From: Cyclobacteriaceae bacterium
Lineage (GTDB): Bacteria > Bacteroidota > Bacteroidia > Cytophagales > Cyclobacteriaceae
NCBI GenBank assembly: GCA_003565295.1
Contig: PXCO01000327.1
Coordinates: 1 to 51,272, forward strand
DNA: 51,272 bases
Direction of reading: 5' to 3'
Part shown: piece after piece, positions 11,251 through 14,078 of the stretch
How the letters are laid out: every line of letters begins with the position of its first letter
How positions within the stretch are numbered: the first letter of the stretch is position 1
Translations under genes and position numbers: made by a program
The notes under the pieces: generated by a model
The model's input: the letters and a program-made list of their open reading frames with translations, nothing else
Told to the model about the DNA's origin: nothing
Database searches by the model: none

Positions 11251-11288
11251 AGGTAAGTAAAAATTGGGAGATAATTCTTTACTTACCT
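11251..11288. terminator. Convergent inverted repeat between lipoprotein gene and blh
   Basis: A perfect 11-base inverted repeat, AGGTAAGTAAA / TTTACTTACCT, with a 16-base loop. It sits between two convergent genes, and its right arm covers the blh stop codon. It lacks a long T run, so it may terminate weakly on either strand. Confidence 0.45.
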
Positions 11289-12149
11289 GCTTTTTAAAAA
11301 ACCATCCATGACATATATGTGCGGTGCAGAAATTAATGAGACGACTATAAAAAACAACAGTACATTTTCTTTTTCGGAGAGCCAGTTAATACTGATCAGT
11401 AGGAGCACGGAAATCCCTATGATGCTGATCAAACTGAATGGCAGGATTTTTTGAATGAACCAGCTTATTTTTCCATTCTTCAAGCCTTCTGTAAGGCTTT
11501 TATATTCGGCCTCTAAGCTTGGAAAGGAATGCCAGAACCCAAAATATAGAACGAAAGAGAGTAGTAGAGGGAGTTGATATAATAAACTACCCAAGACTAG
11601 CATTTCCATTATCAAGTAGAACTTTCTTGCCGGATTGAGGACAAGAATTTGTAAAATTGAAACCGTGAAAAATATGGAAATAAAATAAATACCCAATCGG
11701 GAGATACCTTCAATTTCGATGATTTTGGCAAGTATTGCTGTCGTGGCTGCAAAGTCGCTCCATAAAATCACACTAAGGTAGAAAGCCCCCAGGCTGAAAA
11801 AAAGGAGGGGGGATAACTTGGTCAATCGGGAATGAATAAAATGTACCTGTCCAAAATGATAAGCCGAGATGATAAGGAAAATTATCAATGAAAAAACTGG
11901 AAATAATATCCAAAGAATAAAGTAGATAAAAATGACGAATAAATAAGTGGAGAAGAATCCGGATTTGTTTTTGCTCTTTTCCTTATTCACATAGATCAAG
12001 TGGTCCAAAGCACCGTGTGGCAATCCAATGACCAGGAATACAAGCCCAAAAATCACCCATTCAAATAAAAGGCTTTCACCAGGGACAATTAGATAGCTTA
12101 CTGCCAAGATGATAGCTGATCCTTTACTATATTTTTCAGTATTGCTCAT
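11283..12149 (-). CDS. blh: Brp/Blh-family beta-carotene 15,15'-dioxygenase
   Basis: A 288-residue polytopic membrane enzyme that cleaves beta-carotene into two retinal molecules, the chromophore of the neighbouring rhodopsin. Family histidine motifs are present: GLPHGALDH near residue 42, AYHFGQVHF in the third to fourth helix and FGFWHSFPSL in the second half; these bind the catalytic iron. About eight hydrophobic segments span the protein, the usual topology. It is the last gene of the rhodopsin-crtY-blh run, and its start lies 14 bases inside the crtY end, indicating translational coupling. A convergent inverted repeat overlaps its stop codon. Confidence 0.92.
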   Translation of the reverse strand: MSNTEKYSKGSAIILAVSYLIVPGESLLFEWVIFGLVFLVIGLPHGALDHLIYVNKEKSKNKSGFFSTYLFVIFIYFILWILFPVFSLIIFLIISAYHFGQVHFIHSRLTKLSPLLFFSLGAFYLSVILWSDFAATTAILAKIIEIEGISRLGIYFISIFFTVSILQILVLNPARKFYLIMEMLVLGSLLYQLPLLLSFVLYFGFWHSFPSLEAEYKSLTEGLKNGKISWFIQKILPFSLISIIGISVLLLISINWLSEKENVLLFFIVVSLISAPHIYVMDGFLKSR

Positions 12150-13281
12150 AGTTAAAGAGGGACTTGAGAAAGATGCTGAATCTTAGTTTAATTAATAGAT
12201 TGACTTCATCCCAAAAGCTTGTCTCTTCGTTTAAAAAGGAAAGAATCAAGGGAGGACTGTTTTTTTGAAACAGATTGAAAAATACGCCAGGCAGCTCATT
12301 TGGCCATTTATTAGCAATGTTGAGTAGAATATTGTCATAAAAGGAATACCTTTTCTTTCTTCTTTTCGGCAAAATGGAGGTCTTATCATTTTCCTCGAGC
12401 TGCCTGACAATTTCTTTGCAATGCTTTTGGATGGTGTAGAAGGTATATCCGGTAGAAGGTTTAGTACATCCTGCCGCAGTACCGATATGCGTGAGGTTTT
12501 GATTGTCACTGTTACTCCCGATCAATGTACTCATAGGTATTACCCCGTTTTCTTTATAGGAAATAGAAAATTCCCTAACCGATAATTGTGTGTGCAGGTA
12601 TTTTCTAACTTTTCTTTCCATATATCTTAGACTGGGGATTTTCCCGTTAGAAAGCACCGTATATTCTACTAGGGCGCGATTTGGTTCTAAAGGTAGAATA
12701 TAAGTAAAACCTGCCCCGAAAGCAGTTTTCTGATCAAAATGCATGAGTGTCATCTCCTTTGTGTCCAAATTCATTTCCGTTGATACTACTTCCCATCCCA
12801 AAAAAACCTGGTTAATTTGTGTTCGAGGTTCTTTTTTACCAATGGAGGTAGAATTAAATACTTGGGAAGAATGAAAATGACCCGAATGTTTAGTGACTAC
12901 TTTTATCATTTCCGCTTCTTCGATCACAGCTTCTACCGTGTCGTTCACATAAGTAATGGTGTTGGATTTATGGATTTTTTCCCAGATTTCATGATAAAAG
13001 TCTTCAGCTCTGACCCTGTAATACTTGAGGTTTTTTAAGGGGATGGATAATTTGCGGTCTCCTTGGATGATACTCATTGCGCCCCAAGAGATCAAAGGGG
13101 CGGATTGGGGGTGTATTGAAAGCGGTTCAGCAGCCCAATAACACCAAGTTTTCATTTTTCGATTGGGGTCCTCCTTGTCAATGAGTAGGATTTTTTTGCT
13201 GTGCAAGGAGGAGTCCAACAAGTAATTTGCCAAACTCAATCCTGCGCAACCTGCGCCTAATATGATAATATCATACATCAT
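12136..13281 (-). CDS. crtY: Lycopene beta-cyclase (CrtY type)
   Basis: A 381-residue flavin-dependent cyclase that converts lycopene to beta-carotene, the substrate of the adjacent Blh. The N-terminal dinucleotide fold is DIIILGAGCAGLSLANYLL. The cyclase signature DKEDPNRKMKTWCYW follows, and TAAGCTKPSTGYTF resembles the C-terminal flavin-contact segment of CrtY enzymes. Two consecutive ATGs open the frame (13281 and 13278); the first is used here. Its 3' end overlaps blh by 14 bases. A strong hairpin lies in the 50-base gap after the rhodopsin gene, so crtY-blh are probably transcribed at a lower level by read-through, or from a promoter not visible to me. Confidence 0.92.
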   Translation of the reverse strand: MMYDIIILGAGCAGLSLANYLLDSSLHSKKILLIDKEDPNRKMKTWCYWAAEPLSIHPQSAPLISWGAMSIIQGDRKLSIPLKNLKYYRVRAEDFYHEIWEKIHKSNTITYVNDTVEAVIEEAEMIKVVTKHSGHFHSSQVFNSTSIGKKEPRTQINQVFLGWEVVSTEMNLDTKEMTLMHFDQKTAFGAGFTYILPLEPNRALVEYTVLSNGKIPSLRYMERKVRKYLHTQLSVREFSISYKENGVIPMSTLIGSNSDNQNLTHIGTAAGCTKPSTGYTFYTIQKHCKEIVRQLEENDKTSILPKRRKKRYSFYDNILLNIANKWPNELPGVFFNLFQKNSPPLILSFLNEETSFWDEVNLLIKLRFSIFLKSLFNYEQY

Positions 13282-13331: not shown

Positions 13332-14078
13332 TTATACGGGTACAGCAGTCTTTTTAGATTCCTCAATTGCTACTCCGTACACAACCAACCCAAACCCAAT
13401 TTTGTTAATGGCATCTGCAAGGTTATAAAATAGATCTATACTGCTCACCTCAAATATTCCAGAGAGTAGGTTTCCTGGTAGAACCATGTAACCAATGGGA
13501 TAAATTGACCATCCAAGGGTAATGAAAATCTTTAAGAGGAACATGGCTCTTTGCAAAGCAGGCCTTTTCGATCCTTTGGCTAGTTTTGCCACGTCCCCTA
13601 CAAATACCTCATAGACAATGTATAGGTAGCCAAGGGTAGAAATTATACCCCAAAACACGTTATTATCAATCCCAGAGGTTTCCCCAATATACCCTGTAAT
13701 CAACATCACCAATGAGGCAAGTATCAGTTTGAACAGTGTGGCACCTTTAGCACCGAAGGGTTTTGTCAAAAGGTAAAACTCCACACACATCAAAGGGACA
13801 GTCAACGTCCAGTCCACATACCTGAAGGCTGTAGGACTCTGTCCTGTGGCCAAATAAAAATCTCTCATGTAATAATAATGTACGGCGGCAATACCTGTGA
13901 TCAGGGCAGAGATTAACAATGATGTCTTCCACTTAAGATCCACAGATCCTCTTTCCGTGAAGAAAAAGACAGCAGACCCAAACATTGCCATGTACCCAAT
14001 GAAAAAGGTTATGGCGACAGGGTCACTATCGATGATTTTCTCCAGACCGACAATTTCGTTCAATAATAAAGATTTCAT
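13332..14078 (-). CDS. Proton-pumping microbial rhodopsin, green-tuned, with antenna fenestration glycine
   Basis: A 248-residue seven-helix retinal protein. Helix C reads FRYVDWTLTVPLMCVEF: Asp89 is the proton acceptor, Thr93 the middle position and Glu100 the donor, the DTE pattern of outward proton pumps. Met97 sits at the spectral-tuning position (Leu/Met green, Gln blue). His67 matches the conserved helix B histidine that pairs with the acceptor, Asp222 is the second counterion and Lys226 in NLADAINKIGF binds retinal. Aligning helix E with bacteriorhodopsin puts Gly144 (in FWGIIS) at the bulky Trp138 position. Xanthorhodopsin has Gly at the equivalent site, and this opening admits a keto- or hydroxy-carotenoid antenna. 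The downstream genes crtY and blh supply retinal. Ion selectivity is inferred from motif, not measured. Confidence 0.95.
   Translation of the reverse strand: MKSLLLNEIVGLEKIIDSDPVAITFFIGYMAMFGSAVFFFTERGSVDLKWKTSLLISALITGIAAVHYYYMRDFYLATGQSPTAFRYVDWTLTVPLMCVEFYLLTKPFGAKGATLFKLILASLVMLITGYIGETSGIDNNVFWGIISTLGYLYIVYEVFVGDVAKLAKGSKRPALQRAMFLLKIFITLGWSIYPIGYMVLPGNLLSGIFEVSSIDLFYNLADAINKIGFGLVVYGVAIEESKKTAVPV

Follow-up and report, generated by a model that had tools for sequence, protein, structure and literature searches.

A fenestrated Bacteroidota proteorhodopsin with retinal-supply genes and a predicted xanthophyll docking site

The window (the whole stretch of 51,272 nucleotides analysed here) encodes a proteorhodopsin (PR) that by sequence is of the fenestrated Bacteroidota type and not a xanthorhodopsin, one more member of a type already known. 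We predict a green-absorbing, outward proton-pumping PR with its own retinal supply through crtY and blh, in which the opening at Gly144 most likely docks the β-ring of a host xanthophyll. A comparison across related PRs adds a new lead, namely that Asn203 on the floor of this pocket may mark hosts making keto-carotenoids with CrtW.

Results

On the plus strand, frame 1 of the interval 13332-14078 contains stop codons throughout, and the true open reading frame lies on the minus strand. The 248-residue product matches Pfam Bac_rhodopsin at 4.4e-42. Ranking against PDB sequences placed NM-R1 first (224 bits), followed by Med12 PR (202), GPR (184), GR (112), Kin4B8 (94) and XR (84); membership of the xanthorhodopsin subfamily was ruled out on the distance between the three PRs and the last three proteins. 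An AlphaFold2 model (mean pLDDT 84.7, pTM 0.81) contains seven helices and has a PR as its best structural match (Z 31.7, 1.4 Å over 223 residues), with NM-R1 (Z 29.4) and XR (Z 25.7) among the further matches. The closest relatives, at 81-88% identity, belong to Cyclobacterium, Cecembia, Belliella, Algoriphagus and their kin, and the host is thus a Cyclobacteriaceae-like Bacteroidota (genome G000, 5.6 Mb in 403 contigs).

In a MAFFT alignment of eight proteins, D89, T93, E100 and K226 occupy the same columns as the residues that serve pumping in GPR, XR and BR. These are the positions at which a sequence-only reading had located its proton-pump motif, and on the strength of this motif proton pumping is near certain. 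The donor position is Asp in BR and E100 in the window PR. Met97, named by the same reading and confirmed by the alignment, occupies a column with Leu in GPR and Gln in the blue PR of Med12, which we take to be the green-versus-blue tuning position.

On the minus strand the PR gene is followed by a crtY-type lycopene cyclase and then by blh (Table 1). Judged from family function, the two would provide the steps from lycopene to β-carotene and from β-carotene to retinal. Synteny was counted over 80 related PR loci, some of which are cut by contig ends: blh lies within the same locus in 66 and on the same strand in 61, crtY adjoins the PR in 34, and a divergent gyrB is next to the rhodopsin in 28.

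Table 1 Features of the window and carotenoid genes of the host genome G000 (codons counted from the start of the open reading frame)
Feature	Location	Strand	Basis
Proteorhodopsin gene, 248 aa, D89/T93/E100, Met97, Lys226	13332..14078	-	ORF, PF01036, alignment
D-T-E proton-pump motif with Met97 tuning site, codons 89-100	13779..13814	-	alignment
Gly144 codon, fenestration site (XR Gly156, BR Trp138)	13647..13649	-	eight-protein alignment
Y-M-V-L-P-G-N, codons 197-203, TM6 Tyr and pocket floor with Asn203	13470..13490	-	alignments
Lys226 codon, retinal attachment site	13401..13403	-	alignment
crtY-type lycopene cyclase	12136..13281	-	PF05834 7.7e-49; under NCBIfam cut-offs
blh, beta-carotene 15,15'-dioxygenase, retinal supply	11283..12149	-	PF15461 3.5e-41; TIGR03753 over cut-off
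CrtZ-like hydroxylase, 150 aa	contig C89		PF04116, without NCBIfam match; beside CruF-like protein
CruF-like protein	contig C89, adjoins CrtZ		PF04240; under NCBIfam cut-off
CrtW-like ketolase	contig C115		NF045690 1.3e-70, 237.6 bits, under cut-off 350
IspH	contig C115
CrtB-like synthase	contig C115		PF00494
CrtI	contig C115		passes NF058655 (CrtID) cut-off
ECF sigma factor	contig C115
CrtYcd-like remnant, 89 aa, directly behind crtB	contig C115, L100:9514-9783	-	PF18916 3e-07
CrtD	contig C258		NF042421, over cut-off

The sequence-only reading had assigned Gly144 to the BR Trp138 position in helix E, with glycine at the equivalent place in XR. This assignment holds: the alignment keeps all three in one column, together with Kin4B8 Gly153 and the glycines of GR and NM-R1, while bulky residues are found there in BR, GPR (Phe) and Med12 PR (Trp). 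The alignment thus keeps Gly144 at the fenestration site, contrary to the outcome that would have refuted the sequence-only reading. W143 and G144 are at the positions given by that reading and belong to a gapless W-G-x-x-S-T motif common to the window PR, XR, Gloeobacter rhodopsin (GR) and Kin4B8; agreement with these three proteins extends to S147, T148, Tyr197 and an aromatic residue at 151. In the AlphaFold2 model, residue 144 lies inside the fifth transmembrane helix (137-159). The TM6 Tyr197 corresponds to XR Tyr207 and Kin4B8 Tyr204 and does not discriminate fenestrated rhodopsins, because GPR and Med12 PR carry the same Tyr. The published sign of a fenestration is that glycine replaces a bulky residue at the equivalent of XR Gly156 (PMC12308411, in part), and by this sign the window PR is classed as fenestrated.

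We typed 121 rhodopsins from a search of the order (99 of 291 genomes matching; three of 124 loci, L223, L226 and L227, were dropped as they contained no typed protein) and 93 from a search of the class (96 of 396 genomes matching, less G079, G458, G488 and second partial pieces), as well as the rhodopsins from 50 out of 80 named related loci; CrtW was searched in the same genomes. The DTE counts omit 35 of the 121 order rows, which are not D-T-E, and removal of 10 near-identical rows reduced the set from 223 to 213. Glycine is found at the fenestration site in 83/83 rhodopsin rows from the related loci (a set that counts the window PR and L002, a copy of it) and in 212 of the 213 non-redundant DTE PRs, the sole exception having Phe; by sample this is 86/86 for the order and 92/93 for the class. 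It also occurs in 33 of the 35 non-DTE rows of the order. In line with this, the diagnostic glycine is reported for all Bacteroidota PRs of one subtree (ISME Commun 2026, PMC13043013, in part). Being near-universal in the sampled Bacteroidota DTE PRs, the glycine alone says little about carotenoid use, and it could persist in the clade without being used.

Whether hydroxylated and keto carotenoids are available to the PR depends on the host, and the genes for both that the sequence-only reading had called for were found in G000 as crtZ- and crtW-like genes (Table 1). The CrtZ call rests on the Pfam match, the protein length and the position beside cruF. Together, the crtZ, crtW, crtB, crtI, crtD and cruF-like genes resemble the flexixanthin set of Algoriphagus, and a flexixanthin-type pigment is our best, though tentative, prediction for this host. 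Algoriphagus oki45 has a 246-residue crtYcd at the position of the remnant in G000, which looks truncated or internally deleted; as the remnant is so short, the pigment pathway may also draw on the crtY that belongs to the rhodopsin operon. Right after crtZ on contig C89 lies a CarH-like regulator with MerR and B12-binding domains (L101:8539-9429; 4.4e-27, under cut-off), which suggests light control of the pigment genes.

For the 80 related loci, 50 genomes were searched: 43 contain a match to CrtZ, and 13 one to CrtW below 1e-80. CrtZ matches were obtained for 95 of the order's 99 genomes with a rhodopsin, and they occur in 253 when all 291 genomes are counted, rhodopsin-bearing or not. We therefore consider its presence weak support and have dropped it as an argument for an antenna.

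Of the solved proteins, the one nearest in sequence is NM-R1, which we take to come from Nonlabens marinus; 229 residues align with it at 47% identity. The title of PDB entry 9jou describes it as a zeaxanthin-bound proton pump, and the sequence of 9jov is near-identical; a literature search by PDB code found no publication for either entry. Like the window PR it is of the PR family, with D-T-E, a Met at the tuning site, W-G in helix E and the TM6 Tyr, but it differs in having Gly at the Thr148 equivalent and a T-P-G floor as opposed to P-G-N. Two further PRs with the TM6 Tyr, EinA29G6 and KR1 of the flavobacterium Dokdonia eikasta, bind lutein and zeaxanthin, and their floor pairs are Thr-Glu and Thr-Asp, respectively, against Pro-Gly in the window PR (residue table of PMC12308411, in part). 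XR (Salinibacter, 3ddl) and GR (6nwd) share the fenestration glycine, the W-G-x-x-S-T motif and the TM6 Tyr and use 4-keto carotenoids (PMC9151804, PMC12308411, both in part); they belong to the other subfamily, have Met-Ala and Met-Leu floors, and XR has a longer extracellular F-G stretch. Kin4B8 (8i2z, 7ytb) likewise has the glycine and is available as a zeaxanthin-bound structure; unlike the window PR, it is of the XR subfamily and requires its Ser208-Tyr209 floor for 3-hydroxy pigments. Taken as a whole, these similarities make carotenoid binding by the window PR likely.

According to the residue table of PMC12308411, the TM6 floor separates hydroxy-binders from keto-binders. In gapless alignments with Kin4B8 and NM-R1, Pro201-Gly202 of the window floor P201-G202-N203 are the equivalents of Kin4B8 208 and 209, while the alignment of this region to XR and GR contains gaps. 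Both tabulated positions are thus occupied by non-polar residues: the Ser/Thr floor of the tested hydroxy-xanthophyll binders and the polar pair that forms the 3-hydroxy pocket in Kin4B8, KR1 and EinA29G6 are absent. In Kin4B8, S208A lowers zeaxanthin binding to 2% (PMC12308411, in part), and the presence of Pro201 at this position counts against the docking of a xanthophyll here. Asn203, directly after Pro201-Gly202, might stand in for the polar floor.

The distribution of Asn203 was compared with that of CrtW, whose presence was entered by hand from strong matches only (all below 1e-50, weak desaturase-like ones excluded). Among the 213 DTE PRs, Asn203 occurs 53 times with and four times without CrtW, and other rows number 18 with and 138 without; excluding seven rows that have no letter at 203, the latter become 17 and 132. 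Asn203 rows are hence found in CrtW genomes in 53/57 cases, as compared with 17/149 for other residues (206 rows). In a scan of all 248 columns, position 203 has the strongest association with CrtW (phi 0.77), followed by position 200 (Leu; 0.65), and an alignment-free count of the sixth residue after the TM6 Tyr again gave 53 and 4. Thr four residues after this Tyr (the Thr201 type) falls in CrtW-less genomes in 64 of 66 rows. A simpler rule, polar floor for hydroxy and non-polar floor for keto, was dropped, as P-G-G floors occur 54 times without and 13 times with CrtW (gapless count).

After the order-level data, and before the class-level data were seen, we had set down the prediction that every Asn203 PR would come from a genome with CrtW or another ketolase. 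Outside the host's order this held, as scored by CrtW alone, for 11 of 13 (Asn203 with CrtW 11, without 2; other residues with CrtW 2, without 70). Both exceptions come from fragmented assemblies: G695 has 1050 contigs at 90% completeness and G648 has 1670 contigs at 91%. The Thr-floor part of the prediction failed in family f37, whose two genomes supply both Thr-floor rows with CrtW. An alternative ketolase had likewise been predicted for Balneolaceae with Asn203 lacking a strong CrtW match, and in two of the four pooled exceptions, L039 and L040, a CrtO-like protein was found (a 561-residue frame in each; 368 and 371 bits, E about 1e-110), compared with at most 59 bits in two comparison genomes. 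The family cut-off is 1000, which none of these CrtO matches reaches, and some level of matching is seen in 12 of the 14 control genomes as well; what counts is therefore the score together with the full length of the match. The PRs of these two Balneolaceae MAGs share 65-67% identity with the window PR and were possibly acquired by horizontal transfer; CrtW matches there are weak and desaturase-like, and a search for CrtZ in both genomes gave no match.

We consider it rather probable that the association reflects shared ancestry only, with Asn203 lineages happening to reside in ketolase host lineages and no matching of pocket to pigment. On a FastTree phylogeny of the PRs built without the floor columns, there are just six changes of N203 and nine of CrtW, and an independent-pairs test found 2.5 of 3 pairs in the same direction and none opposite among the pairs listed, which is not significant. 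Moreover, 12 of the 18 rows without Asn203 in CrtW genomes fall in family f13 (one of them without letters at 203), and in family f23 Asn203 occurs both with and without CrtW. Shared ancestry alone sits less well with the rank of position 203 in the column scan, ahead of position 200, with the outcome of the advance prediction, and with the CrtO-like proteins in two CrtW-less exceptions. The 57 Asn203 rows do not form a single clade, the best single split containing 29, and the genera of f1, f11 and f9 switch in full agreement between Asn203 and CrtW (9 vs 4, 4 vs 3 and 1 vs 3), with a probability of 1e-5 under the assumption, which does not hold, that genera are independent. With too few independent events on the gene tree for significance, the association is a lead only. 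The broader proposal, that Bacteroidota PR pocket classes match the host carotenoid, with Pro-Gly-Asn for the 4-keto or 3-hydroxy-4-keto rings of CrtW or CrtO hosts and Thr floors for 3-hydroxy-only hosts, is accordingly put forward as a tentative one that we regard as doubtful at present.

Several other rhodopsins were encountered. The host itself has a second one (L105:3784-4623, contig C42) with fenestration Gly and an N-D-Q motif, presumably that of sodium pumps. Mongoliibacter ruber encodes a second rhodopsin about 8 kb from its PR (L018:1344-2099), which shares 59% identity with the window PR, has PRs as its nearest PDB sequences and carries N-T-Q at the D-T-E positions; we take this to be the chloride-pump motif of another clade. 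In family f13, D-T-A and D-S-A rhodopsins (L107 of G161 and L106 of G301) have a fenestration Tyr and 26-30% identity to the references, and are possibly sensory. A D-T-K group in f11 and f13 (L215, L217, L218, L197, L202 and similar) has fenestration Gly and 25-29% identity to the references, and in our estimation resembles the Exiguobacterium-type pumps with a Lys donor.

Discussion

From the motifs, operon and carotenoid genes observed, we infer the following mode of action. CrtY and Blh would supply retinal to a green-absorbing PR pumping protons outwards. Gly144 would leave a lateral opening beside the retinal ring, and its most likely occupant is the β-ring of a xanthophyll made by the host, docked against helices E and F. 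Going by the CrtZ and CrtW genes, the ring on offer would be a 3-hydroxy-4-keto one of the flexixanthin type. The sequence-only reading is supported for its pump motif, its glycine and the host's carotenoid genes; the antenna and the extended absorption range that it foresaw would be further predictions.

A docked carotenoid may speed the photocycle instead of acting as an antenna. Fujiwara and colleagues (2025, Nat Microbiol), working on marine Bacteroidota, reportedly use the title term 'photocycle-accelerating pigments' for bound carotenoids, a role distinct from that of an antenna. We rate the possibility that the carotenoid at Gly144 stabilises the protein or accelerates the photocycle, and is not light-harvesting, as a serious one at somewhat less than even chances. 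Salinixanthin binds to Kin4B8 without energy transfer (PMC13093654, in part), and the G178W variant of GR, in which the bulky residue at the fenestration glycine blocks carotenoid binding, imitates the benefit of the carotenoid for stability and pumping (PMC9151804, in part). Against this, the Bacteroidota PR KR1 receives energy from astaxanthin, canthaxanthin not being taken up in the same account (PMC12308411, in part), and the antenna and photocycle or stability roles are not mutually exclusive.

That no carotenoid is bound in the cell, and that a plain retinal pump has inherited its glycine with the Bacteroidota PR clade, is unlikely: the glycine is nearly invariant among DTE and frequent among non-DTE rows and the Ser/Thr and polar pair known from tested hydroxy-binders are missing from the floor, but conservation of the glycine is long-lasting where GPR and Med12 PR have Phe and Trp, NM-R1 of the same family is carotenoid-bound, and the host has carotenoid genes. 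We thus retain docking of a host xanthophyll at Gly144 as the preferred reading; in Kin4B8, too, a bulky residue at the glycine blocks binding, there of zeaxanthin (PMC12308411, in part).

The pairing of carotenoids with fenestrated rhodopsins is described as poorly understood (PMC12308411, in part), and among the matches listed in the open-access literature we found no report of a flexixanthin-binding rhodopsin or of an Asn/ketolase pairing. With a retinal operon, hydroxylase- and ketolase-like host genes and a floor outside the published residue table, the window PR makes a good test case. If the pocket classes are real, the partner pigment could be read from one short TM6 motif; and if Asn203 truly marks users of keto-carotenoids, partner pigments would be predictable from the rhodopsin sequence alone.
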